Shown: positions 9,158-49,462 of the stretch, piece after piece
Layout: each line of letters begins with the position of its first letter
Numbering within the stretch: position 1 is the first letter of the stretch
IMG/VR virus record: IMGVR_UViG_3300047564_003525
Location: 1-49,462 of that record
Length of the DNA stretch: 49,462 nucleotides
DNA from: a virus
Direction: 5' to 3' (one strand)
The notes under the pieces: model-generated
Told to the model about the DNA's origin: nothing
The model's input: the letters and a program-made list of their open reading frames with translations, nothing else
Databases searched by the model: none
Position numbers and translations under genes: made by a program

Positions 9158-12100
9158 GGATCTCAGGGTAAGAATTTCGACCCAGGTCCAGGGCCTGGAT
9201 CAGGTCGAAAGTCTGAAGAACGCCGTTCGGCAGCTGCAGGGTGCAGCTACGCCGGCTGCGGCGGACCTGCAGAAGCTGAAGAACGCGGCGATGGCGCTAG
9301 GAAGCGCCACTGACCGCACCGAGAACGATCTGCGGCGATCGATCAACGCCCTCAAGGATGTCCGGGCTCAGTTGTCGCTGACGGACGGCGAATACAAGAA
9401 GCTGACGCGCACCATCAATCAATACCAGACGCAACTGGACAAGGCGACTGGCGCGCAGCAGCGTGGCGGTCGAGCGTCGCAGTTTGCGCAAACCGCTGGC
9501 GCGGTGGCTGCGTCTGGGGTGTTTGGCGGACCGGAAGGTCTGATCGGTTCTGGTATTGGCGCCGTCGTGGGAGGGCCTGCCGGAGCCCTAGCTGGCGGCG
9601 CGATCGGCGCCCAAGTTGGCATGCTTCGCCAGCAGCTTGGCGGCACAGCCACGCTTGCCGCAGATCTAGAAAAACAACGCATCGCTCTCAAGCTGGTCCT
9701 AAAAGACACGGCGGAATACAACGACGCCCTCCAGTTCTTAGCAAAGACCAGCAAGGACTACGCGATCCCGCAAGATCGTTTAATCAAAGGATTTACCCAG
9801 CTTGCAGCTTCCGTCACTGGAGCTGGCGGAAACATTAAGGACACTAAGACGGCGTTTGAAGGCGTTGCCGCTGGAATTCGCGGCACCGGCCGAAGCCTGG
9901 AGGATCTTGACGGAGCGCTACTGGCCACCGCGCAGGTATTCAGCAAGGGCAAAGTTACCGCAGAAGAGCTTCGCGGTCAGATTGGTGAGCGACTGCCTGG
10001 CGCGTTCACCCTATTTGCCGAGGCGATCGGCAAGACCCCGCAAGAGCTGGACAAGGCCCTTGAGCGTGGTGAGATTAGCCTGCAGGACTTTTTGACTTTC
10101 AGCAAAAAGGTCTTCGGGGAATATGGCGAAAACGCCAAAATTATCGCGGAATCCCCCGCTGCGGCTGGCGATCGCCTGCAGACCAGTCTTAAAAATCTTG
10201 GCGAAAGTGTAGGCAAACTACTGCTGCCAATCGGCGCGTCTTTTCAGAATACATTTGCGGATATTGCAGGATATATTGACGGCGCAGCAAGACGCCTTGC
10301 GAATTTTCTTGGTCTCAACAAAACCGACACTCAAAAAATTGGCGAGCTAAACAATCAAATAATTATTCAACAGCGAGCGATTCAGCGGGAGCGGGACAAG
10401 GTTCAATCTGGTGTCACAACTAAGGACGCTGCAGAGTATGCCATTAAAGAGTTTGAAGGCCGCATCGTTAAATTGCAAGCCGAGGCAAAAACGCTAAAGG
10501 CTCTCCAGCAAGCAACCGCAGACCAGCAGAAAGATACGCGCAAGGGTTTGGCAGATCAAGCGTCTGGCAAGGCGGATCTCGACACCAAAGCGCTGGACAA
10601 GCTTAAAAAAGAGCAAGAGCGAAATGCCTTAGAGCAGCAGCGGCTCAACGAAGTAACCGCTAAGGCTCGCATTGCGCTGGATGACGCAGTCTTCCGTAAT
10701 TCAATGGAGCTCGTTCGCAAGCGATACGAGTACGAGCAAGAACTGATCACCAAGCAGCGCGATCTCTGGGTTAAGTCGCAGGTCGGTGCGGCGCGTGGCG
10801 CAGCTGGACTGATTTCCGGCTTCCTCAACGAGATGGACGGGCTGAGCACCCGCCTACTGCAGGCAAAAGATGCAGTTGAGAGCGCTAAGCAGGGGCTCAA
10901 GTCGGCTCAATCAATGGCCGCGACCACTATTGGCGCAAGCGGGGCAGCTAGCGCTGCCGGTCGCTACATCCAGGGTGGCATCGGTCCCCGCGGCGCCAAC
11001 CAGTACGGCCCGCACTTCGACATCAAGCGCAGCGACGGCGGCTACTACTCCCGCAATGCGCTTGATGCCTACGTGCAGGTAAATGGAAGGCCGTTGTCCA
11101 GTGGCGTAACTGTGCCCGGCGGCGAGTATGGCGCGCCTCGTAGCTACGGCGGCCATGCCGGCCGGGATTACGCCTTTGGGGCTGGCGCTGCATTGACGCT
11201 GACTGGCGGCGCCAAGTGGATGGGCAGCCAGAAGGGCTCCTACGGAGATGCTGCTGCGTTTATGACTCCGGACGGAAAGGTCTACAAGATCATCCACGGA
11301 AGGTTCGAAGGCTCGGCTGGCGCCGGCGCCGGTGCCGCCGCTCGCCGAGACGTTACTGCCGAAGGTGGCGCAGACGTGGCCAAGGCCGGGCTGGACTCGG
11401 CCAATCAGGCCTTTGCCATGACGGAGCAACAGCTTGGCCGGCTCAAGGGCATCATCGGCCAAGGCTTTGTGCTCGATTTCACCGATCAGATCCGCCAGCA
11501 GATTGAAGCGCAAAAAGAAGCCAATTTCATGCTGGAGTATCGCAACAAGCTCGAGGAGTCGGGCATGCGGTCCGAGTTTGTCGATGCTGAGCTGAAGAAG
11601 GCTGAGGCTTTCAAGGAAGTCACGGGGCAGATTAGCTCTGCCAATCAGGCGCTAGAAATTCTTGAGGCAAACGGCCAAGGCAACACCGAGCAGGCCAACC
11701 TTTTGCGCCAGGCGATCGAAGCCTTGGTCAAGCTGTTCCCTGATCTAAAAAAAGGCATTGACGATGCCGCCAAAGCTCAGGCGGCCGCAGCAGACAAGGC
11801 CAAGTCGTTTGGCAGTCAGTTCAAAGACACCTTTAAGCAGGCTTACGACTCCGCAACCAATCTTGGCGCCAACTTGGCCGGCATCGCCACCAGCGGCATC
11901 GACGGCTTGACCAACGCGATCGTCAACTTTGCCTCAACGGGCAAGGCCGCATTTAAGGAGTTCGCCGCATCGGTGCTGAAGGATCTCGGCGCGATGCTGA
12001 TCAAGTTTGCCATTTTCAAGGCGGTGGGCAGCATCTTTGGCTTTGGCGCAACAGGTGGCGCCACTGGTCCCGACAGCTCGGCGCCGCTGAAGACGTTTGC

Positions 12101-12539
12101 CACCGGCGGCGTGATGTCCAACAACGTGGTGCCGATGCGGCGCTACGCCAGCGGCGGCATCGCCCGTTCGCCTGAGGTGGCAATTTACGGCGAGCGCGGC
12201 CCCGAGGCCTATGTGCCCCTGCCCGATGGCCGCAGCATCCCGGTGAAGATGCAGCAGCGCAACGATGCATTGAACCGCTACCGGCCGATGGGCGCCACTG
12301 GCACGATGACCGCCGATGGCGATCCTGCAGCAGCCACAGGTGGCGCTGCACCAGGATCAAGCGCGATCGACGTGCGCTACAGCGTCGAGCGGATCAATAA
12401 CGTTGAGTACGTCACCGCCGAGCAGTTCCGCAGCGGGATGCAGCAAGCTGCCAGCCAGGGCGCGCAGCGCGGTGAGCAGCGGGCGCTGCGTAGCCTCCAG
12501 CAGTCCACCGCAGTCCGCAGCCGAGTTGGGATCCGATGA
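9147..12539 (+). CDS. Tail tape measure protein with embedded M23-like domain
   Basis: An 1130-residue tape measure protein that sets tail length and is ejected at infection. Residues 1-110 are charged coiled coil; 115-160 are Gly/Ala-rich and hydrophobic (GPEGLIGSGIGAVVGGPAGA), possibly membrane-active. Residues about 180-330 match the tape measure N-terminal domain (LAKTSKDYAIPQDRLIKGFT ... GKVTAEELRGQIGERLPGAF), and further coiled coil runs to about 590. Residues about 600-725 form a peptidase M23-like domain with GGHAGRDYA (HxxxD) and IIHGRF, where the second expected HxH reads HGR, so activity is uncertain. The C-terminus (ASGGIARSPEVAIYGERGPE, AYVPLPDG) is the lambda-like tape measure end. 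The start overlaps gpGT, and the stop overlaps the next gene (ATGA). Confidence 0.92.
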   Translation: MANEDLRVRISTQVQGLDQVESLKNAVRQLQGAATPAAADLQKLKNAAMALGSATDRTENDLRRSINALKDVRAQLSLTDGEYKKLTRTINQYQTQLDKATGAQQRGGRASQFAQTAGAVAASGVFGGPEGLIGSGIGAVVGGPAGALAGGAIGAQVGMLRQQLGGTATLAADLEKQRIALKLVLKDTAEYNDALQFLAKTSKDYAIPQDRLIKGFTQLAASVTGAGGNIKDTKTAFEGVAAGIRGTGRSLEDLDGALLATAQVFSKGKVTAEELRGQIGERLPGAFTLFAEAIGKTPQELDKALERGEISLQDFLTFSKKVFGEYGENAKIIAESPAAAGDRLQTSLKNLGESVGKLLLPIGASFQNTFADIAGYIDGAARRLANFLGLNKTDTQKIGELNNQIIIQQRAIQRERDKVQSGVTTKDAAEYAIKEFEGRIVKLQAEAKTLKALQQATADQQKDTRKGLADQASGKADLDTKALDKLKKEQERNALEQQRLNEVTAKARIALDDAVFRNSMELVRKRYEYEQELITKQRDLWVKSQVGAARGAAGLISGFLNEMDGLSTRLLQAKDAVESAKQGLKSAQSMAATTIGASGAASAAGRYIQGGIGPRGANQYGPHFDIKRSDGGYYSRNALDAYVQVNGRPLSSGVTVPGGEYGAPRSYGGHAGRDYAFGAGAALTLTGGAKWMGSQKGSYGDAAAFMTPDGKVYKIIHGRFEGSAGAGAGAAARRDVTAEGGADVAKAGLDSANQAFAMTEQQLGRLKGIIGQGFVLDFTDQIRQQIEAQKEANFMLEYRNKLEESGMRSEFVDAELKKAEAFKEVTGQISSANQALEILEANGQGNTEQANLLRQAIEALVKLFPDLKKGIDDAAKAQAAAADKAKSFGSQFKDTFKQAYDSATNLGANLAGIATSGIDGLTNAIVNFASTGKAAFKEFAASVLKDLGAMLIKFAIFKAVGSIFGFGATGGATGPDSSAPLKTFATGGVMSNNVVPMRRYASGGIARSPEVAIYGERGPEAYVPLPDGRSIPVKMQQRNDALNRYRPMGATGTMTADGDPAAATGGAAPGSSAIDVRYSVERINNVEYVTAEQFRSGMQQAASQGAQRGEQRALRSLQQSTAVRSRVGIR

Positions 12540-18811: not shown

Positions 18812-21565
18812 ATGGCGGATCTGAAGATTTCTGAACTCGCAGCCTTAGCCGGCGCCAACCTGGCAGCCGGCGACCTGCTGCCGATCGTTGACGTATCCGC
18901 CAGCGAAACCAAGAAGATCACCGTCACCGACTTGGTGGGCAATGCCACCACGTTGATTGCCGACGCAACGATCCCCGGCGCCAAGATCCTGTTTGGGTCT
19001 GGCTCGATCGCTGGCAGCAGCATTGCCACCGGCGGCATTGGCGCAACACAGCTGGCTGATGATGCTGTAACGGCCGCCAAGCTGGGCAATGAGTCCACCG
19101 TCGATCTCGTCACCACGCTGCCTGGCTCAGGCGCCTTCACGGGCCAGCTGGCGCTCGATACGGATGACCTAAAGGTCTACTGCTGGGATGGATCCAGCTG
19201 GCAGTCGATCAAGGCTGCGGGCTCGATCAACGCCGTTGTCGGCGGAACCTCCGGCATCGTCAACATCACCGTCAGCACCAGTGGTGACACGGTGACGATC
19301 AGCACCACGCTGGACAACACCAGCGCCGCTGCTCAATTCTTAGCTGGCCCTACCGCCAGCTCGGGCGCTGCCAGCTATCGGACCATTGCGGCGGGTGACC
19401 TGCCAACCGCCACAAGCGGTGCCAAGGGCGCTGTGCAGGTGAACGGTTCTGGCCTGACAATGAGCGGCGACACCGTTCAGATCGACAACACGGTGGCCGT
19501 CAACAACTCGGCCTATCACGTTGTCCAGTACACCGCCAAAGGCCTGGTGACTGCCGGCCGCACTGTTCAGCCAGGTGACCTGCCACTGGCTGGCGCCAGC
19601 AGCGTTGGCGGCGTCTATCCCGGCAGCGGCCTCAGCGTGGCCGTTGATGGCCAGCTCAACCACACCAACACAGTCGCCACTGGCACCTACACCAAGCTGA
19701 CTGTCGATGCACAAGGCCACGTCACCGCCGGCGCGTCGCTGGTGGCTGGCGACATCCCCGAGATCAGCACCGACAAACTGACCAGCGGCTTCTTGCCAGC
19801 TGATCGCATTGCCAGCGACGCCGTGACTGGCGCCAAGCTGGCAAATAGCTCCACAGCTCAATTCGGCGCCTCGCAGCCAGTAGCTGAGTACACCGGCCAG
19901 CTGTACTTCAACTCGCTGACCCGCGACATCTACATCTGGGACGGCAACGTCTGGCAGCCCATCGGTATCTCGGTGGGTGAGATCGTTTTCGCCGGCACCT
20001 ATGACGCCAGCACAAACCTGGTCGCCAGCGTCACCAGTGATGGCACTGCTGTTGGCTTGAGCATTGGCCAAGCGCTACCTGCTGCTGCTGCTGCAAACAA
20101 CCGCTACTACTTGGTGGTGGCCGAAGCTGGCACTGGCACCTCGCCGGCTCCGACCGTTGCGCTGAGCCCGCCAGACATCATCCTGTCCAACGGCAACGCA
20201 TGGACCGAGATCGACGTGTCGCAGACGATCACGTCGCAGGTGGCCAGCAACGTGTCGGTGACGCCAACTGGCGGCATCAGTAGCACCAACGTTCAAGCGG
20301 CACTAGAGGAGCTGGACACTGAAAAGCTGCCTACAGCTGGCGGCACGATGAGCGGCGAGCTGCTGATCGGCATTGCTGGCAGCCTTGCCTTTGAGGGCAG
20401 CACCGCAAACGCTTACGAGACCTACCTGGCGGTGGTCGATCCGACTGCCGACCGCACAATCACGTTCCCAGACGTGAGCGGCACGGTGATCACCACCGGC
20501 GACACCGGCACCGTCACCAACGCGATGCTGGCGACGATCAGCACAGCAGACAAGGTTTCGCTGTCGGCGCTCAACATCGACGGCGGCACCGACATCGGCG
20601 CAGCGCTGGCCGACGCGGACCTGTTCATCGTTGACGACGGCGGCGCTGGCACCAACCGCAAAGCAGCAGCTACGCGGATCACCGATTACGCCTTCGGCAA
20701 GGTCTCCGGTGACATCACGATCACCAGCGGCGGCACCGCCGCGATCGGCAGCGGCGTGATCGTCAACGCTGACGTGAACGCCTCGGCGGCGATTGCAGGC
20801 ACCAAGATCAGCCCAGACTTCGGATCGCAGGACATCGCGACCACCGGCAAGGCGGCAGTCGGCGGCGCAGGTCGCGCTGTGGGTGGTGCGGTTGTCCCGC
20901 AGGTGGCGATCGAGACGCTCGGCCAAGGCTTTGCCTGCGTCCGCAACAGCGCTGACACATCCGGCGGCATCATCGCGCTGGGCAAGAGCCGGGGCACCAG
21001 CACTGGCGCCGTGACCGCGGTGCAGCTCGACGACATCCTGGGCGAGATCCGCTTCGCTGGTGCTAACGGCACCGACATGACCAGCGTCGGCGCTCACATT
21101 CGGGCGCTGGTCGATGGCGAGGTCGGCACTGCTGGCGACACGACCGACATGCCGACACGGCTGGTGTTCAGCACCACGCCGGATGGATCGGCAACGGCCT
21201 CGCAGCGGCTGGCGATTGCCTCGACTGGTCGCGTCACGGTGACGAACAGCGTGGTTGGCACGCCGACATCGCTGGTGGATGGAGCAACGATCACCCCGGA
21301 CTTTGCTGAGGCTTCCAACTGGACGCTGACCATCGGCGGCAACCGCACACTGGCTAACCCGACGAACCTGACGGCCGGCCAGAGCGGCACGATCGTGATC
21401 ACCAACAGCGGCGGCAACCGGACGCTCGCTTATGGCAGCTACTGGAAGTTTCCGGGCGGCACTGCGCCTACACTGACCACGACCGCCAGCGCGGTAGACG
21501 TGATCGCCTACTACGTTGAATCGGCCACCCGCATCACCGCCCGCATGATCTCGGACGTGAAATGA
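18812..21565 (+). CDS. Tail fibre protein
   Basis: A 917-residue fibre beginning MADLKISELAALAGANLAAG DLLPIVDVSASETKKIT, the characteristic attachment sequence of cyanophage-type tail fibres. It is built from repeating modules (VAGDIPEISTDKLTSG, FTGQLALDTDDLKVYCWDGS SWQSI, LYFNSLTRDIYIWDGNVWQP I) and ends with SGTIVITNSGGNRTLAYGSY WKFPGGTAPTLT, a fibre C-terminal domain type. Composition is rich in Gly/Thr/Ala/Ser with no Cys-based enzymes. Role: host contact. Its stop overlaps the next start (ATGA). Confidence 0.85.
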   Translation: MADLKISELAALAGANLAAGDLLPIVDVSASETKKITVTDLVGNATTLIADATIPGAKILFGSGSIAGSSIATGGIGATQLADDAVTAAKLGNESTVDLVTTLPGSGAFTGQLALDTDDLKVYCWDGSSWQSIKAAGSINAVVGGTSGIVNITVSTSGDTVTISTTLDNTSAAAQFLAGPTASSGAASYRTIAAGDLPTATSGAKGAVQVNGSGLTMSGDTVQIDNTVAVNNSAYHVVQYTAKGLVTAGRTVQPGDLPLAGASSVGGVYPGSGLSVAVDGQLNHTNTVATGTYTKLTVDAQGHVTAGASLVAGDIPEISTDKLTSGFLPADRIASDAVTGAKLANSSTAQFGASQPVAEYTGQLYFNSLTRDIYIWDGNVWQPIGISVGEIVFAGTYDASTNLVASVTSDGTAVGLSIGQALPAAAAANNRYYLVVAEAGTGTSPAPTVALSPPDIILSNGNAWTEIDVSQTITSQVASNVSVTPTGGISSTNVQAALEELDTEKLPTAGGTMSGELLIGIAGSLAFEGSTANAYETYLAVVDPTADRTITFPDVSGTVITTGDTGTVTNAMLATISTADKVSLSALNIDGGTDIGAALADADLFIVDDGGAGTNRKAAATRITDYAFGKVSGDITITSGGTAAIGSGVIVNADVNASAAIAGTKISPDFGSQDIATTGKAAVGGAGRAVGGAVVPQVAIETLGQGFACVRNSADTSGGIIALGKSRGTSTGAVTAVQLDDILGEIRFAGANGTDMTSVGAHIRALVDGEVGTAGDTTDMPTRLVFSTTPDGSATASQRLAIASTGRVTVTNSVVGTPTSLVDGATITPDFAEASNWTLTIGGNRTLANPTNLTAGQSGTIVITNSGGNRTLAYGSYWKFPGGTAPTLTTTASAVDVIAYYVESATRITARMISDVK

Positions 21566-27865: not shown

Positions 27866-28161
27866 GATTCGCTTCCCGTGACGGCACGGTCGACCCCGAG
27901 GAAGGCCTGCTGATGGCCTACCAGCTGTTTGCCGAAGGCCGGCCGCAGGAGGCAGCCATGATGTTCCTCGCCTACGCCGACCAGGAAAACGACATCGGCA
28001 TTGTCGGCCAGAGCGAATACGACGCTTTGGCCAAGCACCTGAAGGAGGTGCTGGCGCACGTTGCGCTCTACAACATGATCACCAGCTGCCAGATCCAGCC
28101 GGTGCTCACCGACGAGCTGGAGCCGGCCTACAAGCCCTCGCCTTGGTACACCGAGAGCTGA
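27853..28161 (+). CDS. Conserved hypothetical protein after thyX
   Basis: A 102-residue, mostly helical acidic protein (MEHMRFASRDGTVDPEEGLL MAYQLFAEGRPQEAAMMFLA). Its helix-turn-helix repeat-like pattern resembles a small TPR-type unit, but no family is certain. It is the last gene of the + strand late and metabolic block. Its 3' end overlaps the oppositely oriented integrase gene by 34 bases, and no separate terminator was seen between them. Confidence 0.62.
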   Translation: MEHMRFASRDGTVDPEEGLLMAYQLFAEGRPQEAAMMFLAYADQENDIGIVGQSEYDALAKHLKEVLAHVALYNMITSCQIQPVLTDELEPAYKPSPWYTES

Positions 28162-29252
28162 TCGGCCACCGCCGCAGCCATCGCCTTAGCGCCGTCCTCG
28201 AGCAGGTGCGCGTAGCGGCTGGTGGTCAGCGGACTAGCGTGACCGAGCAGATTGCCGACTTGCGGCAGCGTCAGACCGGCTTTGGTGATCGCTACTGAGG
28301 CCCAGTGATGCCGCGCATCGTGAACCTTGAAGTCTTTGATGCCGGCAACCTGCATCAGCTCTTCCCATAGTTTCTGATAGCCAACAAGGTGGCCATCGCC
28401 CTGCCCTGCGATAATCCATTGTGTATTCGATTTGAGACGCAGTTCTCTCAAAATGAGAATTGCCGAAGGAGGAATATGCACTATCCGCTCATGGCCAGTC
28501 TTTTTGCCAGTCTTGTGATCGCTGGCGGGCACCACCAGCAGCGCTGCCTGCTCGTCGAACCAATCCCATTTGCCGCGGCAGATTTCGCCCACCCTGCAGC
28601 CGGTCAGCATCAGCAGCCGCACCAGTTGGGCAAAGCGCCAGCGCAGTGGGCTGGTGGCGATCGTGTCCAGTGCAGCTACCAGCCGCTGCCGCTCTTCGCC
28701 TGACAGGTAACGCCGCCGCTTGCGCTCGGTGTTGGTCGGAATCTTCTGGCAGGGGTTGTCCGGCCGCAGGCCCCACAGGATCGCAAGGTTGAACGCCTTG
28801 CGCAGCACCGCCAGCGTCCGGTTGGCCTGAATTGGACGTATCGAGCCGATCAGCTTCATGACCTGCGCACTGGTCACGGCCTGCACCTTTTCGCGGCCCA
28901 GTCTGGGGATGATGTGGACCTGCCAAATGCTCCGGTAGTTCTTCGCCGTGCCCGGCCGCAGCTTCGGGTAATGCTCGGCCAGCACCCGCTGATACAGATC
29001 GGCCACTGTCGGAGCGCTGCGCAGCTCTTGGCGGGCACTGGTGGGCGATTTGCCCTGGGCGGCCGCCACGAGGATCTTGTGGGCCTCCTCGCGGGCGAGC
29101 GTGCGGTTGAGGACATCGGCTCGACCGATCTTGTGGTGCTGCTGCTTGCCGCTCGGTTCGCGGTAGCGCAGATACCAGGTTTCGACCCCGCTCGGCAGCG
29201 CCAGCAGCCCCAGCCCGGCGACCTTGGTATCGGGCTTCCACTCGCGTTTCAT
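28128..29252 (-). CDS. int: Tyrosine-type site-specific integrase
   Basis: A 374-residue tyrosine recombinase. Residues 1-75 are an N-terminal arm-binding domain (DUF4102-like, WYLRYREPSGKQQHHKIGRA), 80-165 the SAM-like core-binding domain, and 180-365 the catalytic domain. Visible catalytic residues are R220 (TGCRVGEI), K247 (DHKTGK), H311 and R314 (HDARHHW), H338 (LLGHAS) and nucleophile Y347 (SRYAHL). The start has GGAGGG upstream on its strand. It inserts and, with an excisionase, excises the phage genome. The gene faces a tRNA gene about 245 bases from its start, with repeated CGCGCAA sites between, as expected for attP. A DNA-binding HTH gene at 37026-37256 could be its excisionase. Confidence 0.95.
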   Translation of the reverse strand: MKREWKPDTKVAGLGLLALPSGVETWYLRYREPSGKQQHHKIGRADVLNRTLAREEAHKILVAAAQGKSPTSARQELRSAPTVADLYQRVLAEHYPKLRPGTAKNYRSIWQVHIIPRLGREKVQAVTSAQVMKLIGSIRPIQANRTLAVLRKAFNLAILWGLRPDNPCQKIPTNTERKRRRYLSGEERQRLVAALDTIATSPLRWRFAQLVRLLMLTGCRVGEICRGKWDWFDEQAALLVVPASDHKTGKKTGHERIVHIPPSAILILRELRLKSNTQWIIAGQGDGHLVGYQKLWEELMQVAGIKDFKVHDARHHWASVAITKAGLTLPQVGNLLGHASPLTTSRYAHLLEDGAKAMAAAVADQLSVYQGEGL

Positions 29253-29496: not shown

Positions 29497-29570
29497 GGGC
29501 CCATAACTCAATGGTAGAGTGGCGAACTTTTAATTCGCAAATCTCGGTTCAACTCCGAGTGGGCCTACCA
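29497..29570 (+). tRNA. tRNA-Lys (anticodon UUU), CCA encoded; possible part of attP
   Basis: A full cloverleaf can be drawn. The acceptor stem is GGGCCCA (29497-29503) with TGGGCCT, having one G-U pair at the end. The D stem is ACTC/GAGT. The anticodon stem is GCGAA/TTCGC with loop CTTTTAA, giving anticodon TTT. The variable loop is short, and the T arm is CTCGG-TTCAACT-CCGAG. It ends with discriminator A and an encoded CCA. It lies in a non-coding gap beside the integrase. A tRNA here usually marks the attachment site; a complete rather than 3'-partial tRNA is notable and could be functional. Confidence 0.93.
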
Positions 29571-33273: not shown

Positions 33274-33759
33274 TCACACTTCGTAAAAGTCGCAGTCGGC
33301 AGCAAAGCCGGTGCCCTCCTCGAGAGGATCTGGAAATCCGATGCGGCATTCGCCGTCGCTCCAGTTGCGACACTTTTCGCACGACCGACGTGCCACCTTG
33401 CGCGGGATCTCTGGGAATACGTCCCCCCAGGTTGCACCAGAACGGATCTGCTGGATGCACTGGCGGACTACTCCCAGCTCAGCCGCCAGTCTTTTCTGAG
33501 ATGTCTGCGTCTCAGTCAGCACTCGGTAGACCTGCTCAAGCGTGAGCTTGCGGCGAAGGCGCTTGGCGATTGGCTTAAGCGGTTTGCGGCCGGGCTTTTC
33601 TCCTGGACTGATCACCGTCCAACGCTCGCCACAATCGCGACACTGATAGCGCCGGCGCACCGACCCATCGACGCGGGTCTTGGTCTCCAGCACAAATCTG
33701 TTGTTGTGACTACAGCCGGGCGTGCCTACGGTGGTGTGGTCGACGTAATTGGGCCCCAT
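33274..33759 (-). CDS. Zinc-finger plus HTH DNA-binding protein
   Basis: 161 residues from ATG 33759 (MGPNYVDHTTVGTPGCSHNN ...). Residues 16-50 are a zinc-ribbon like those of InsA/transposase-type proteins (CSHNNRF...YQCRDCGERWTVI). Residues 75-115 form a helix-turn-helix (LTLEQVYRVLTETQTSQKRL AAELGVVRQCIQQIRSG). The C-terminus is a Cys4 unit (CEKCRNWSDGECRIGFPDPL ... GFAADCDFYE). It is a likely transcription regulator of the early block; target unknown. Its ATG shares two bases with the ATG of a divergent + strand gene at 33758, so each promoter must lie inside the other gene. Confidence 0.72.
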   Translation of the reverse strand: MGPNYVDHTTVGTPGCSHNNRFVLETKTRVDGSVRRRYQCRDCGERWTVISPGEKPGRKPLKPIAKRLRRKLTLEQVYRVLTETQTSQKRLAAELGVVRQCIQQIRSGATWGDVFPEIPRKVARRSCEKCRNWSDGECRIGFPDPLEEGTGFAADCDFYEV

Positions 33760-33949
33760 GTCTTTTGGTGAGTGGCTGATTGCTGAAATGCCAGCAGAAG
33801 ATAAGTGGAAAATCGAGCTGGATGCTCGCAAAGAAGATCCCCGTACAGCAATGCTGTACAGGTTGTGCTGTCAGCAACAGTTTCAGCTCCAGAAGGCGGT
33901 CAACGAGATCGCCCGGCTGGAGCTCATGCTGATGGACGCTAGTCGTTGA
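33758..33949 (+). CDS. Small + strand hypothetical protein inside the leftward block
   Basis: 63 residues (MSFGEWLIAEMPAEDKWKIE LDARKEDPRTAMLYRLCCQQ ... IARLELMLMDASR), acidic, with a coiled-coil C-terminus. It is the only + strand gene in the 30.1-38.8 kb leftward run. Its start overlaps the divergent HTH gene's start (CATG) and its 3' end overlaps the next - strand gene by 11 bases. A pairing with the HTH regulator is possible but unproven. Confidence 0.58.
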   Translation: MSFGEWLIAEMPAEDKWKIELDARKEDPRTAMLYRLCCQQQFQLQKAVNEIARLELMLMDASR

Positions 33950-42225: not shown

Positions 42226-42366
42226 ATGAAGCGCATACCGCTCCTCCTTCCGCCCGAGATGATCGCTTGGCTGGAAGCCAAGACCACAGGCATCGAAAAC
42301 CGTCAGACCTTCATTCGGCGCCTTCTCTCCGAGGCCATGAAGGACGACCTGCGGGCCAAGGGTTGA
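42226..42366 (+). CDS. Ribbon-helix-helix (CopG-like) protein
   Basis: A 46-residue protein (MKRIPLLLPPEMIAWLEAKT TGIENRQTFIRRLLSEAM). One strand followed by two helices fits the RHH fold, which binds DNA as a dimer. It lies immediately upstream of the primase-helicase gene (stop to ATG, two bases) and divergent from the CoiA-like gene. It is a plausible local repressor of this intergenic region. Confidence 0.68.
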   Translation: MKRIPLLLPPEMIAWLEAKTTGIENRQTFIRRLLSEAMKDDLRAKG

Positions 42367-42368
42367 TC

Positions 42369-45002
42369 ATGCGCACCAGCATCAACGACCTCGCCCAAGG
42401 CCGCTGGGTCGAGATCCTCTCGACCGTTGGCGGTATCCCTGTTCATTACCTCGACAACAAGCACAAGCCCTGTCCCTCCTGTCGTGATGGCGACGATCGC
42501 TTTCGCTTCGACGATCAGGACGGCAATGGCACATGGTTCTGCTCGCACTGCGGCGGCAAGGACGCCACAGGCGGCGGCGGCAGCGGCATGTCGCTCTTGA
42601 TGCGCGTCAAAGGCTGGGAGTTCAAGGAAGCCGCCCGCGCAGTCGAGGACTATCTCGGCGTTCCTCGCCCATCCAGCTCAAAGCCCGTGACCCCTCGCCC
42701 CATCAAGCCGCCCGTCGACGCCGCAGCGCCTGCCCTCGACGGCGCATCACACCAGTGGTGTTACACCGATGCCGCCGGCGAGCCGCTGTTCTGGATTCAG
42801 CGCATCACCCGCCCGAACGGCGACAAGATCTTCCGCCCCCGCACCTGGGTCGATGGCATCGGTTGGCAGGGCGACAAGGGCACTAGCTGGCCTGCCCCAC
42901 GCCCGCTCTACAACCTCGCCGCTCTCCACGCCCGGCCCGAGGCGCAGGTGGTCGTCTGCGAAGGCGAGAAAGCCGCCGATCGCGCACAGGAGCTCTTCCC
43001 CCGCCTCGTTGTCGTCGCATGGCCCAACGGCGCACAGTCTGTCGGCAAGGTTGACTGGTCGCCCCTCGCTGGCCGCAGCATTCTCCTGTGGCCCGACAAC
43101 GATGACGAAGGCCGCAAGGCCATGGCCAAGATCGCCACGCTGATCAAAGAGCCGGTCAAGCTGTTCACCATCGATGCCCCGCCAGACGCGCCCGAGAAGT
43201 GGGACATCGCCGATGCTGACTGGACGCCAGCGGAGGCTCTTGCCTACGTCAAAGCAAATTGCCGACCGATGGAGCCGCCCGAGCCGGAGCTCGAGCCCGA
43301 GCTGACCGCCGAGCTCGTCGAGATTACCGAGTCACCCGCCAAGCCGCAACGCACTCGCGATGCAGGTCGCCTTGAAGGCATGCCGTTTCGCTGCCTTGGC
43401 TTTGACCGCGGCCTTTACTTTTACCTTCCCGAGAAAGCCGGCCAGGTCATTGCACTCACTCCAGCGCAGCACACCCGCAGTTACCTCAACACGCTGGCAC
43501 CGCTGCTGCGGTGGTCCGACGCGTTTGGCAGCATCAACGAGAAGAGCGGCGAAACCCAAATCGCCTGGGCCAGTGCCGCCGACGCGCTGATAGAGGCCTG
43601 CACTGAAGTCGGGGTCTACGATCCCGCTCGTGTGCGCGGCCGTGGCGCCTGGGCCGACGCCGGCCGCGTCATCCTGCACCTCGGCAACCGCTTGGTCATC
43701 AACGGCGCATCAAGCCCTATTACCAAGCTCCCGGAGGAGTTCGCGAGCTACTACTTCTACGAAAACGCCAAGCCGATCGAAGGGCCCGGCCAAGATACCC
43801 TCGCCGACACCGTCGCCGCCGAGATCAAGCAAATCGCCTCCTGCTTTCGCTGGGAGACCCAAGCATCCGCCAACCTCGTGCTCGGTTGGATCGTCCTCGC
43901 GCCCGTCTGCGGTGCTCTGGACTGGCGGCCACACATCTGGGTCACTGGCCCCGCCGGTTCCGGCAAGACCAGCCTGTTGAAGCTGTTCATGAAGCCCATG
44001 CTCGGCGGCATGTTCGAAGGCGCAACTGGCGGCACCACTGAGGCCGGCCTTCGCGGCCAGCTGCGCTCTGACGCCATTCCGATCGTCTTCGACGAGCTCG
44101 AGCAGAACGAACAGAAGGACAAGCAGCAGGTTCAGAACATCCTGTCGCTGGCCAGGATCGCCAGCTCTGAGGGCGGCAAGATCTACAAGGGCACCACAAA
44201 CGGCGGCGTCAATACATTCGAGATCCGCTCGATGTTCTGCGTCTCTTCGATCAACGTTGCTCTCGTTCAACGCGCTGACCTTGATCGATTCTGCGTCCTT
44301 AGCCTGCGCAAAGACCAAGTGCCGAAAGACGACTGGAACGCTTTCGAAGCTCGCATCATGAAGGCTTGCACTGACGAAAACGGCCGCGAACTTGTCGCTC
44401 GGACAATTAGTCAGATCCCCATCATTAGAAAGAACGCCAAGACACTCGCTGGCGCCCTATCCAGCAAATTCGGCCAGCGATTCGGCGACCAGTACGGCAC
44501 CCTGCTTGCCGGCGCTTGGACACTCGAACCCAGCGGCGGCGGTGAACTGACCCCAGAGAAAGCCACCGAGTGGATTGATTCCATGGACTGGCAGAACCGT
44601 GAGGTCGACACCAACGATGCCGACGAGGTCAAGTGCATCAACAAGATCCTGCAGACCATCTTGCAGCTCGACGGCGGGCGCCGGATTTCAATCTTTGAGC
44701 TGGTGCAACTTGCCGCCAGCGGCAAGGTCTTCGTGACTGAAGGCAGCCTGTCCCCAGGTGACGAGGTGGAGACCCTCCTAGGCCGCTACGGGCTCAAGGT
44801 CACCAACGGATGCCTGGCGGTGGCCAACAGTAGCACCAACCTGCAGGCCTTGCTGCGTGACACGCCATGGGCCGGAACGGCGTATCGGCAGGCCCTGCGC
44901 CGCCTGCCAGAGGCGACCAGCGCAACATCGACCGTGCGCTTCAAAGGCATGGGTCCGTCACGCGCAACATTGGTCTCACTTGAGACGCTTGAGATCTTGT
45001 AA
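42369..45002 (+). CDS. Primase-helicase with TOPRIM and AAA-type ATPase domains
   Basis: An 877-residue protein starting MRTSINDLAQGRWVEILSTV. Residues 25-65 hold a CHC2-like zinc ribbon (C35-C38 and C58-C61). The TOPRIM primase domain lies at about 190-270 (AQVVVCEGEKAADRA, LLWPDNDDEGRKA). A linker with Pro/Glu repeats follows, and then an ATPase/helicase domain with Walker A TGPAGSGKTS (about 525) and Walker B IPIVFDELEQ (about 570). It synthesises primers and unwinds DNA at the phage fork, like T7 gp4 and phage DUF927/D5-like proteins. Its stop is directly followed by an AACGGT-rich, AT-rich region, a candidate origin. Confidence 0.92.
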   Translation: MRTSINDLAQGRWVEILSTVGGIPVHYLDNKHKPCPSCRDGDDRFRFDDQDGNGTWFCSHCGGKDATGGGGSGMSLLMRVKGWEFKEAARAVEDYLGVPRPSSSKPVTPRPIKPPVDAAAPALDGASHQWCYTDAAGEPLFWIQRITRPNGDKIFRPRTWVDGIGWQGDKGTSWPAPRPLYNLAALHARPEAQVVVCEGEKAADRAQELFPRLVVVAWPNGAQSVGKVDWSPLAGRSILLWPDNDDEGRKAMAKIATLIKEPVKLFTIDAPPDAPEKWDIADADWTPAEALAYVKANCRPMEPPEPELEPELTAELVEITESPAKPQRTRDAGRLEGMPFRCLGFDRGLYFYLPEKAGQVIALTPAQHTRSYLNTLAPLLRWSDAFGSINEKSGETQIAWASAADALIEACTEVGVYDPARVRGRGAWADAGRVILHLGNRLVINGASSPITKLPEEFASYYFYENAKPIEGPGQDTLADTVAAEIKQIASCFRWETQASANLVLGWIVLAPVCGALDWRPHIWVTGPAGSGKTSLLKLFMKPMLGGMFEGATGGTTEAGLRGQLRSDAIPIVFDELEQNEQKDKQQVQNILSLARIASSEGGKIYKGTTNGGVNTFEIRSMFCVSSINVALVQRADLDRFCVLSLRKDQVPKDDWNAFEARIMKACTDENGRELVARTISQIPIIRKNAKTLAGALSSKFGQRFGDQYGTLLAGAWTLEPSGGGELTPEKATEWIDSMDWQNREVDTNDADEVKCINKILQTILQLDGGRRISIFELVQLAASGKVFVTEGSLSPGDEVETLLGRYGLKVTNGCLAVANSSTNLQALLRDTPWAGTAYRQALRRLPEATSATSTVRFKGMGPSRATLVSLETLEIL

Positions 45003-46864: not shown

Positions 46865-46956
46865 TTGTTTCGGTTTGTAACGAAGCGGCTGCCGGGTTCC
46901 GGTGGCCGCTTATTGTCTGCTCATCGGCCACTGAGCCGCCTTTACCGCTTACCGCC

Positions 46957-47795: not shown

Positions 47796-48034
47796 TGACA
47801 ACCCAGGAGCAATACGTGATCGCCCTGGTGCTGGGCTCGATCACCAAAGTCGAGGCCTACACCGACATCAGCGTGGAGATGGCCCTGAGTAACGACTGGA
47901 GCGCCGAGGAGCGCATGCAGTTGCGTGATGCAGCTGGGATGGTGTTGCGTTCCCTGCATCCCGAAGTGCCGATCGATGTAGCGGCGCGATCGGCAATCGC
48001 AAAATGCCTGGGGACTTGCGGGGGGTCGGTTTAG
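47795..48034 (+). CDS. Small hypothetical protein
   Basis: 79 residues (MTTQEQYVIALVLGSITKVE AYTDISVEMALSNDWSAEER MQLRDAAGMVLRSLHPEVPI), helical and acidic. Its 3' end carries the second copy of the 23-bp repeat (48011-48033), which supplies the last codons and most of the stop (TAG 48032-48034). Unknown role. Confidence 0.6.
   Translation: MTTQEQYVIALVLGSITKVEAYTDISVEMALSNDWSAEERMQLRDAAGMVLRSLHPEVPIDVAARSAIAKCLGTCGGSV
48011..48033 (+). repeat. Dispersed 23-bp repeat, copy 2
   Basis: This copy overlaps the end of the gene stopping at 48034. It differs from copy 3 at two adjacent bases and from copy 1 more in the middle. Confidence 0.55.
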
Positions 48035-48073
48035 AGGAGTCTTGTGGCCGGCCCCCTGGTCCCAAAAGTTCAA

Positions 48074-48096
48074 GGGACTTGCAAGGGGTCGGTTTA
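48074..48096 (+). repeat. Dispersed 23-bp repeat, copy 3
   Basis: The third copy lies 63 bp after copy 2 and is followed by TAGGGGGTG, similar to the CAGGGGTTG that follows copy 1. The surrounding 48035-48138 has no gene; it contains several G-rich runs. Confidence 0.55.
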
Positions 48097-48138
48097 TAGG
48101 GGGTGTGTGGTCACCCTCCTGGCGAGGCTTATAGGGGT

Positions 48139-48190
48139 GATAATGAGAATCATTCTCAACACCGCGTGCCGATAATGAGAATCATTCTCA
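48139..48190. promoter_or_regulatory. Two Fur-type iron boxes
   Basis: GATAATGAGAATCATTCTCA occurs identically at 48139-48158 and 48171-48190, a 32-bp step (about three helical turns). Each matches 17 of 19 positions of the classical Fur box GATAATGATAATCATTATC. Fur represses iron genes when Fe(II) is replete. Two such perfect palindromes are very unusual in a phage. The regulated gene, if any, is not obvious; the next coding gene begins at 48908. Confidence 0.75.
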
Positions 48191-48227
48191 ATAGGACGGT
48201 GTCAGCGATCGCCCACACGAAACCGTT

Positions 48228-48426
48228 GGTACATTTGTACGCTAGTACATATGTACTATCAGCAAACTAGTACATTTGTACTATCAATGTTGGTACATTT
48301 GTACGCTAGTACATATGTACTATCAGCAAACTAGTACATTTGTACTATCAATGTTGATACATTTGTACGCTAGTACATATGTACTATCAGCAAACTAGTA
48401 CACTTGTACGCTAGTACATTTGTACT
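48228..48426. promoter_or_regulatory. Array of ten LexA (SOS) box-like palindromes
   Basis: Palindromes of type AGTACATWTGTACT start at 48228, 48244, 48269, 48292, 48308, 48333, 48356, 48372, 48397 and 48413. Six (48244, 48269, 48308, 48333, 48372, 48413) fit the cyanobacterial LexA motif AGTACWNWTGTACT exactly; nine fit the looser RGTACNNNDGTWCB as I recall it. The 16/25/23-bp steps repeat as a 64-bp higher-order unit (48226-48289, 48290-48353, third partial). This is far more than any ordinary operator needs. Confidence 0.78.
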
Positions 48427-48436
48427 AGCTAAAGTA

Positions 48437-48689
48437 TCACTCAGGTGCGCGCACGGTGAGCGTCACTCAGGTGCGCGCACGGTGAGCATCACTCAGGTGC
48501 GCGCACGGTGAGCATCACTCAGGTGCGCGCACGGTGAGCATCACTCAGGTGCGCGCACGGTGAGCGTCACTCAGGTGCGCGCACGGTGAGCATCACTCAG
48601 GTGCGCGCACGGTGAGCATCACTCAGGTGCGCGCACGGTGAGCATCACTCAGGTGCGCGCACGGTGAGCGTCACTCAGGTGCGCGCACG
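48437..48689. repeat. Ten 26-bp tandem repeats
   Basis: TCACTCAGGTGCGCGCACG recurs ten times at exact 26-bp intervals (48437, 48463, 48489, 48515, 48541, 48567, 48593, 48619, 48645, 48671), linked by GTGAGC(A/G). Each unit has two dyads: GTGCGCGCAC and GTGAGC(A/G)TCAC. The variable base is G only before copies 2, 6 and 10, giving a 104-bp (four-unit) higher-order period. There are no spacers, so it is not CRISPR. Iterons of a replication or partition site, or a protein-binding array, are possible. Confidence 0.9.
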
Positions 48690-48907
48690 CGCCGCGCGAG
48701 CGGCTGACCTTATATATGGGTCGCAACGGCGCGACCGTTCTCTAGGTGCGGCCGACGTGGTCGCCGGCATGCACACGCTCGCCGATGGCGCCGTGCAACC
48801 CGCAACGCGGCCAATCGCCGAACCGGCACACGCGCGCCTAGCACGCGCGCCGACGCGCGAATAGGATTCCGGCACGCCTAACGGCGAACCTTTACCGCTT
48901 ACCTGCC
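48690..48907. other. CpG-rich gene-free segment with hairpin
   Basis: This segment between the 26-bp array and the next gene has many CGCG/GCGC runs. It contains TATATAT at 48711-48717 and the hairpin GGTCGC (48719-48724) / GCGACC (48731-48736). A GTG-initiated open frame across it begins in the repeats and is not convincing. It ends with the TTTACCGCTTACC leader at 48891-48903. Confidence 0.5.
48891..48903 (+). promoter_or_regulatory. TTTACCGCTTACC leader, shared by three genes
   Basis: TTTACCGCTTACC lies four bases before the ATG at 48908. Nearly the same sequence lies at 46941-46953 (three bases before ATG 46957) and as CTTACCGCTTACC at 49161-49173 (four bases before ATG 49178). It contains a repeated TTACC(G)C heptamer. 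It may be a translation-initiation or RNA-protein element; none of the three genes has a purine-rich Shine-Dalgarno sequence. Confidence 0.6.
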
Positions 48908-49150
48908 ATGCCTGAGAACCTTTACCGCGTTGAGACGTTCGCCGGCACGCGCGCCGGGTGGGTTGCCGCATCGCCGGCGATCGTGCCGCACGCCGTCGCC
49001 GTGCGCCGCGTCGACCTTTACCGCGCCGTGCGCGGCGACGCGTGGCTTTACCGCGTCGCGCCGATCGTGCTGCCGGGTGAGCGCGTCGACGCCGTGGCAT
49101 CGCTGCCGCGCCGACGTGCTACCGGCGCCGCGCTGCCGGCGTTCTGCTGA
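48908..49150 (+). CDS. Small hypothetical protein, CpG-rich
   Basis: An 80-residue protein (MPENLYRVETFAGTRAGWVA ASPAIVPHAVAVRRVDLYRA) with three LYR-containing repeats, each encoded by CTTTACCGC. It is Arg/Ala/Val-rich and looks like a small beta/alpha protein. Codon use is far richer in CG dinucleotides than elsewhere in the window, a possible sign of a different origin. Unknown role. Confidence 0.58.
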   Translation: MPENLYRVETFAGTRAGWVAASPAIVPHAVAVRRVDLYRAVRGDAWLYRVAPIVLPGERVDAVASLPRRRATGAALPAFC

Positions 49151-49177
49151 TCCGTCAACCCTTACCGCTTACCTGCC

Positions 49178-49462
49178 ATGCTCACCATTCAAACCAGGAC
49201 CGGCGCCGCAACGGTGCAACCCGTATGGGTTGGCGATTGTCTCGCTGTGCATGCACCATTCAACGCCGACGGCAAACCGGCGCCGCGTGGTCGCTGGACT
49301 ATCAGCCACGCCGGCAGCGGCTACAGCGCCGGCACGTTTCACGGTTCGCGCGTCGACGCCGTCAAGCTTGCGCGCTTGTGGGATTCGGCGTTCGCTGCCG
49401 TCACGCCGGCGAACGTTCGCGCGTGGCAGCTGCGCGATCAGTGGGCGGCGCTGATAAAGCGC
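49178..49462 (+). CDS. Hypothetical protein, 3' partial
   Basis: 95 codons from ATG 49178 to the window end with no stop. The sequence (MLTIQTRTGAATVQPVWVGD CLAVHAPFNADGKPAPRGRW TISHAGSGYSAGTFHGSRVD AVKLARLWDSAF) looks like a small beta domain with a helical end. It shares leader and codon style with the previous gene. The rest lies beyond the window, where packaging or late genes may begin. No family is recognised. Confidence 0.6.
   Translation, partial: MLTIQTRTGAATVQPVWVGDCLAVHAPFNADGKPAPRGRWTISHAGSGYSAGTFHGSRVDAVKLARLWDSAFAAVTPANVRAWQLRDQWAALIKR

Follow-up and report, generated by a model that had tools for sequence, protein, structure and literature searches.

A 26-bp direct-repeat array as a candidate operator in the control region of temperate cyanophages

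The phage and the region around the array

The window, by which is meant the whole stretch of DNA analysed, is a linear IMG/VR virus record of 49,462 bp. It carries the genes of a siphovirus-like tailed phage (major head protein, tape measure, tail fibres and endolysin) together with replication and recombination genes (integrase, RecT, exonuclease VIII, helicase and primase), and its nearest relatives among cellular genomes are mostly Cyanobium and uncultured cyanobacteria. Judged by its sequence, the phage is a temperate cyanosiphovirus of freshwater picocyanobacteria. As such it resembles S-LBS1, a freshwater cyanosiphovirus that likewise bears an integrase (PMC6157547); the words repeat, LexA and repressor are absent from the main text of the S-LBS1 paper. 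Relatives of the window phage have 13-bp end repeats and terminate at tRNA-like att sequences. The early-gene region also encodes an NrdR-type zinc ribbon protein (33274-33831, minus strand), whose Pfam match, with E = 3e-6, lies just above the cut-off.

The array sits in an 870-bp non-coding gap (48035-48907) between the replication module and the small-ORF, terminase and late genes. The gap opens with GGGACTTGC..GGTCGGTTTA repeats, the first of which overlaps the preceding ORF at its end. Two Fur-like boxes come next, then nine boxes of the LexA type, the array, the TTATATATGG motif and the TTTACCGCTTACC leader before a small ORF (Table 1). No TTGACA-like -35 element was seen for the TTATATATGG motif. 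The TTTACCGCTTACC leader also precedes 46957 and, slightly shortened, 49178. In the form TTACCGCTTACC(T)GCCATG it stands at 46942, 48892 and 49162, directly before three cassette ORFs and with no obvious Shine-Dalgarno sequence, and the cassette ORFs of relatives are preceded by a related leader. In the relative L022, the cassette is followed by a gene for a GP88-family protein and then by the terminase.

Table 1. Positions of the principal features of the window
Feature	Position	Strand	Remark
Tyrosine integrase	28128..29252	-	marks a temperate phage
tRNA-Lys	29497-29570		near the tyrosine integrase gene
911-aa primase/helicase	42267..45002	+	query for finding relatives
Two copies of GGGACTTGCnnGGGGTCGGTTTA	48011..48099	+	in most relatives, the first element of the control region
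Two Fur-box-like sites GATAATGAGAATCATTCTCA	48139-48158, 48171-48190	.	kept in relatives; Fur sites putative
Nine LexA-type boxes RGTAC-N4-GTAC	48228..48425	.	partly in 64-bp tandem repeats
26-bp direct-repeat array	48436..48689	+	nine full units and a 20-bp tenth
TTATATATGG promoter-like (-10-like) motif	48710..48719	+	conserved 3' of the array slot
TTTACCGCTTACC leader	48891..48903	+	immediately 5' of the first cassette ORF's start codon
80-aa cassette ORF	48908..49150	+	conserved in L022, L030, L031 and L040
Second cassette ORF	49178..49462	+	cut off by the contig end; also kept in several relatives

Structure of the array and its occurrence in relatives

Tandem Repeats Finder delimits the array at 48436-48689, with a period of 26, 9.8 copies and 97% matches. 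Units 1-9 each read [A/G]TCACTCAGGTGCGCGCACGGTGAGC and unit 10 matches over its first 20 bases only, so that the tenfold repeat described in the first-pass annotation is real in its repetition but has a partial last copy and a 26-bp frame that begins at 48436. Each unit contains the palindrome GTGCGCGCAC and the sequence GTGAGC(A/G)TCAC; the latter, originally called a palindrome, is present in the array but is more exactly a 4-3-4 dyad with an unpaired centre. The two occur ten and nine times, respectively, and nowhere in the window outside the array. Self-matching within the array at a lag of 26 extends over 52 of 52 bases, compared with 35 of 52 for the next-best lag anywhere in the window.

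The sole polymorphism among the units is the A/G at base 1, and comparison unit by unit confines G to units 2, 6 and 10, whence a four-unit block of 104 bp has been duplicated. The near-identity of the copies and the 104-bp higher-order period were thus correctly recognised at first pass, and the suggestion of recent expansion or homogenisation is backed both by the four-unit repeat and by the turnover of arrays described below. Copy numbers are assembled counts and must be taken as approximate, since the contigs of two relatives end within their arrays. That the repeat might be an assembly artefact, as had been allowed for, is ruled out as the sole cause: independently assembled relatives have period-26 arrays in the same place.

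These relatives were gathered through a primase scan of IMG/VR, which yielded 27 loci, and a tail-protein scan and two array-pattern scans, which added more. Their arrays lie at the corresponding place and contain from 2 to about 30 copies. Those of the GTGA type comprise 10 copies in the window, 6.5 in L024, 10 in L025, 5.6 in L027, about 30 in L058, at least 5 in L062, about 14 in L064 and 3 in L060. A second type, built on a GTTAGGTG core and without the GTGA-N3-TCAC dyad, is found in L021 (3 copies), L057 (at least 6), L030 and L031 (2-3), L105 (4) and L104. Some irregular units in L064 and the additional presence of 25-bp units in L104 indicate that the period of 26 is strong without being absolute.

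Eight phage contigs provide six distinct units with the dyad, namely GGTGAGCRTCACTCAGGTGCGCGCAC, GGTGAAGCTCACTACCCCGTGGGGTT, GGTGATGCTCACCGACCCGTTGAGTA, AGTGATGYTCACCGCCCCGGTGGGTT, AGTGAGGTTCACCGCCCCGCTGAGTT and AGTGAGGCTCACCTCCTCGGTGAGTT. All eight letters of GTGA-NNN-TCAC are invariant across the six, as is one other column; variation between unit types lies in the loop and over most of the spacer, and the period of 26 is kept. The main polymorphism within arrays falls in the NNN loop, being A/G in the window and C/T in the 29 units of L058 in which it was seen. Such invariance of the dyad would be expected if a dimer bound it in a sequence-specific manner.

It is very improbable that the units instead act as an array of RNA or single-strand hairpins, for example as a structured leader. 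The second palindrome of the unit differs between types and is often self-complementary, and triple units fold better than their shuffles in seven of eight cases (z -1.3 to -4.5), both of which favour such a reading; the exception, L021, folds worse than its shuffles (z +1.9), and the Rfam scan of the window matched nothing beyond the tRNA-Lys. The predicted shapes differ by unit type and a shared fold was not found, so conserved RNA structure is unsupported, and the invariance of the GTGA and TCAC arms argues for recognition of sequence rather than structure.

The 26-bp array is present only in the control region of these phages. The first-pass annotation had proposed searching host and phage genomes for the motif, and the search, once run, returned arrays confined to this phage group: a pattern scan of viral contigs gave seven matches, all traceable to it, and 399 genomes from the order of the host yielded no triple array, from which we conclude that the array is phage-specific. 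A search of the phage collection with the DNA of 47800-49000 gave no match, and Synechococcus phage S-H1, whose annotation is the best among the primase relatives, has no such repeat in the 22.6 kb examined. The exact 18-mer had a single match in IMG/VR, in L009, which is isolated and outside any tandem array and was dismissed as chance. One of the relatives, L040, belongs to a MAG labelled gammaproteobacterial, probably by a binning error, since it is near-identical to L031 in the control region.

Neighbouring boxes and exchange at the array slot

The window boxes AGTACATTTGTACT fit the published cyanobacterial LexA consensus, AGTACWNWTGTACT (PMC3091678); the 26-bp unit, in contrast, is unlike a LexA box. 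Of eight lexA loci of the host genus, six have AGTACGGATGAAC or a near variant some 30 bp upstream of the LexA match; near a seventh there is a GTAC-arm box, GGTACAGGTGTAC. The arrangement at these host promoters is seen again in L062, where a tandem array repeats AGTACTAATGAACT and up to 11 LexA-type units are present. In all seven phage records that carry exact LexA boxes, these are confined to the control region, also when a relaxed pattern is used. The host lexA promoters therefore support the reading of the phage boxes as putative sites for host LexA.

L022 has a second Fur-box-like array with a period of about 34 bp (12073-12167), just upstream of its small-subunit and GpA-type terminase genes, and L014 has similar sites further downstream (18834-19015). 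In L118, a contig found through its LexA sites, at least 10 LexA-like boxes are interleaved with Fur-like boxes at about 575-920, so the combined architecture recurs elsewhere. Phages of 74 kb and 46 kb (L128, 8351-8685, and L129, 350-950, respectively) have paired LexA boxes with different palindromic arrays of 24-26 bp nearby. Extra palindromes, possibly another class of operator, accompany the array in some relatives: AAACAGYGCTGTTT in L021, L030, L031 and L057, between the LexA boxes and the array, and AACTCGCGGTGAGTT and AACGCGCGGGGTGTT in L024, L027 and L105.

Comparison of two sets of phages demonstrates that the content of the array slot is swappable. In the first set, the left flanks of L014, L022 and L044 are 63-70% identical to that of the window and the right flanks, including TTATATATGG, 54-60%. 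Between these flanks lie nine LexA boxes and the 26-bp array in the window, LexA boxes followed by one Fur box in L014 and L022, and, in L044, where LexA boxes are missing, about eight Fur-like boxes that are TATAACG-N4-CGTTATA palindromes. The second set, L024, L027, L023 and L105, has flanks that are 67-91% identical, or 67-89% when only L027, L023 and L105 are compared; here GTGA-type arrays occupy the slot in L024 and L027 and the GTTAGGTG type does so in L105, whereas L023 is without an array although its flanks are 85-89% identical to those of L027. Homologous flanks may thus hold another array type, one or more Fur boxes, or nothing. The exchange suggests that the arrays could serve as interchangeable sensors that time the attack on the host.

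The same comparisons bear on two further possibilities raised at first pass. Iteron-type theta origins consist of tandem direct repeats of constant period, and the array could be one of these, its 26-bp repeats binding a phage initiator beside an AT-rich stretch that unwinds. Direct repetition at a constant period is indeed what was found, with a conserved core and one array per genome; the LexA array adjoining is AT-rich, the primase lies about 6 kb away and, in several complete relatives, a bend in the cumulative GC skew lies no more than several kb from the region. The last point was set aside as evidence for an origin, gene orientation changing there too. We nevertheless consider an iteron origin quite improbable. 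The array is not retained along with the replication genes: it is missing from L023, and two whole or nearly whole genomes, G006 and G003, whose primases are 70-72% identical, have neither the 26-bp array nor any other iteron-like array genome-wide. That relatives sharing replication genes can be without the array argues against an origin, whereas an operator array can be dispensable. Moreover, the number of copies varies between 2 and about 30, the phage integrates, and no dedicated initiator was found, the primase/helicase being the only replication protein of this kind recognised beside several small proteins that match nothing. Dispensability and replacement in close relatives, as well as the lack of a recognised initiator, thus set the array apart from iteron theta origins.

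Tandem dyad repeats are also what a partition site, similar to the parS or parC centromeres, might offer, but this proposal is scarcely credible and proved to be unsupported. The phage encodes an integrase, its relatives have tRNA-like att sequences at their ends, close relatives have lost the array, and neither ParA nor ParB was recognised in the proteins scanned, which come from a contig short of several kb of the genome.

The array as a candidate operator

On balance, the array is probably a tandem operator, one input among several at the control region. This reading is preferred because the array lies in a non-coding gap between LexA-type boxes and the conserved TTATATATGG, because the neighbouring boxes match known operators, because GTGA...TCAC and the period of 26 are kept across six unit types, because arrays swap between conserved flanks, and because the array is limited to this phage group and absent from the 399 host-order genomes. 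On the other side, the roughly 30 copies in L058 exceed the need of a simple operator, and the GTTAGGTG type is devoid of the dyad. The distance from the array to the TATA-like motif is about 20 bp in the window but roughly 130-220 bp in relatives, a variability that makes the fixed geometry of class I or class II activators unlikely.

We infer protein binding, transcription control and a role in a lysogeny switch from the sequence. A candidate dimeric DNA-binding regulator would recognise GTGA-NNN-TCAC, with one site in every 26 bp. Host LexA and Fur, bound to the neighbouring arrays, would hold the control region in check, and the 26-bp array would bind a third regulator, whether repressor or activator. 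The combined inputs would then set the timing of the small-ORF cassette and of the late genes beyond, so that transcription of the region, and hence lytic development, might respond to DNA damage, to iron status and to a third signal. Of the first-pass suggestion that this is a third host-regulator array, the operator part fits best, being in line with the LexA-type and Fur-type arrays with which the 26-bp arrays are exchanged; the regulator itself may be the host's or the phage's.

Single copies of RGTGANNNTCACY occur about 50 times per host genome, compared with about three for a reversed control. Their reading as a regulon was rejected, since GTG-A..-.TC-ACC is a common codon context and coding and intergenic sites were counted together.

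A narrower form of the operator reading makes the array the operator of the phage's own immunity repressor, in which case swapping would change superinfection immunity. The exchange of array types among phages with similar flanks and the lack of the array in host chromosomes both favour this version, which we regard as possible though rather doubtful: the proteins scanned, some of them small and uncharacterised, included no recognisable CI/Cro-like repressor, and no protein cluster followed the presence or type of the array in a comparison of 11 genomes. No cognate binding protein for the 26-bp unit was found.

The abundance of sites could also be explained by titration: once the phage genome has multiplied, the arrays would soak up host regulators (LexA, Fur and a third) and so release regulons of the host or the phage from repression. 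Tandem sites for several regulators do occur together in large numbers, as in the LexA-type units of L062 and the 26-bp units of L058. However, a conserved promoter-like motif directly follows the arrays, and a pure sponge would have no need of one. Sequence alone does not separate the two readings, but we judge the sponge unlikely.

Returning to the operator reading, it may be extended, tentatively, to a plug-in sensor region in temperate cyanophages. In a fixed promoter frame, operator arrays (LexA, Fur, at least two 26-bp families and further palindromes) would be gained, lost, expanded and exchanged, and an undescribed regulator, from host or phage, could use the 26-bp array as its operator and so provide a third input to the lysis decision. 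Two known systems invite comparison. In GIL01, a non-integrating linear phage of Bacillus thuringiensis, host LexA serves as phage repressor (PMC4551915, PMC6182141). The window phage similarly has host-type LexA boxes in its control region, and no CI-like repressor was recognised among its proteins scanned. It differs in being an integrase-bearing tailed phage of cyanobacteria, in combining long LexA arrays with Fur boxes and a 26-bp operator-like array, and in having a LexA module that relatives can lack. Alphaproteobacterial phages have an intergenic region dense in CtrA sites, read as timing lysis by host state (PMC9437464). In the window phage regulator sites are likewise concentrated in one large intergenic region, although several regulators and swappable tandem arrays appear to be involved.

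The signals that wake prophages in picocyanobacteria are poorly known, and here the inputs might be read from DNA: DNA damage via LexA, iron via the Fur-like sites and a third signal via the 26-bp array. Few cases of modular rewiring in a phage switch would be as clear as this exchange of whole arrays between conserved flanks, and the candidate regulator could be sought directly with the 26-bp unit as bait.

Finally, the small-ORF block that follows the array (48690-49462) is dense in phage-specific palindromic 6-mers that are rare elsewhere in the genome. CGCGCG occurs seven times in the 773 bp of the window block and once in the remaining 48.7 kb; corresponding counts for the matching blocks and the rest are 9 and 0 for GAGCTC in G027, 11 and 4 for CCCGGG in G009, and 5 and 0 for ACGCGT in G008. 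The effect is weak or absent in G003, G005 and G025, and is seen in the window, G008, G009, G012, G024 and G027. The proteins of the block are partly conserved, and its DNA 'dialect' differs from phage to phage.
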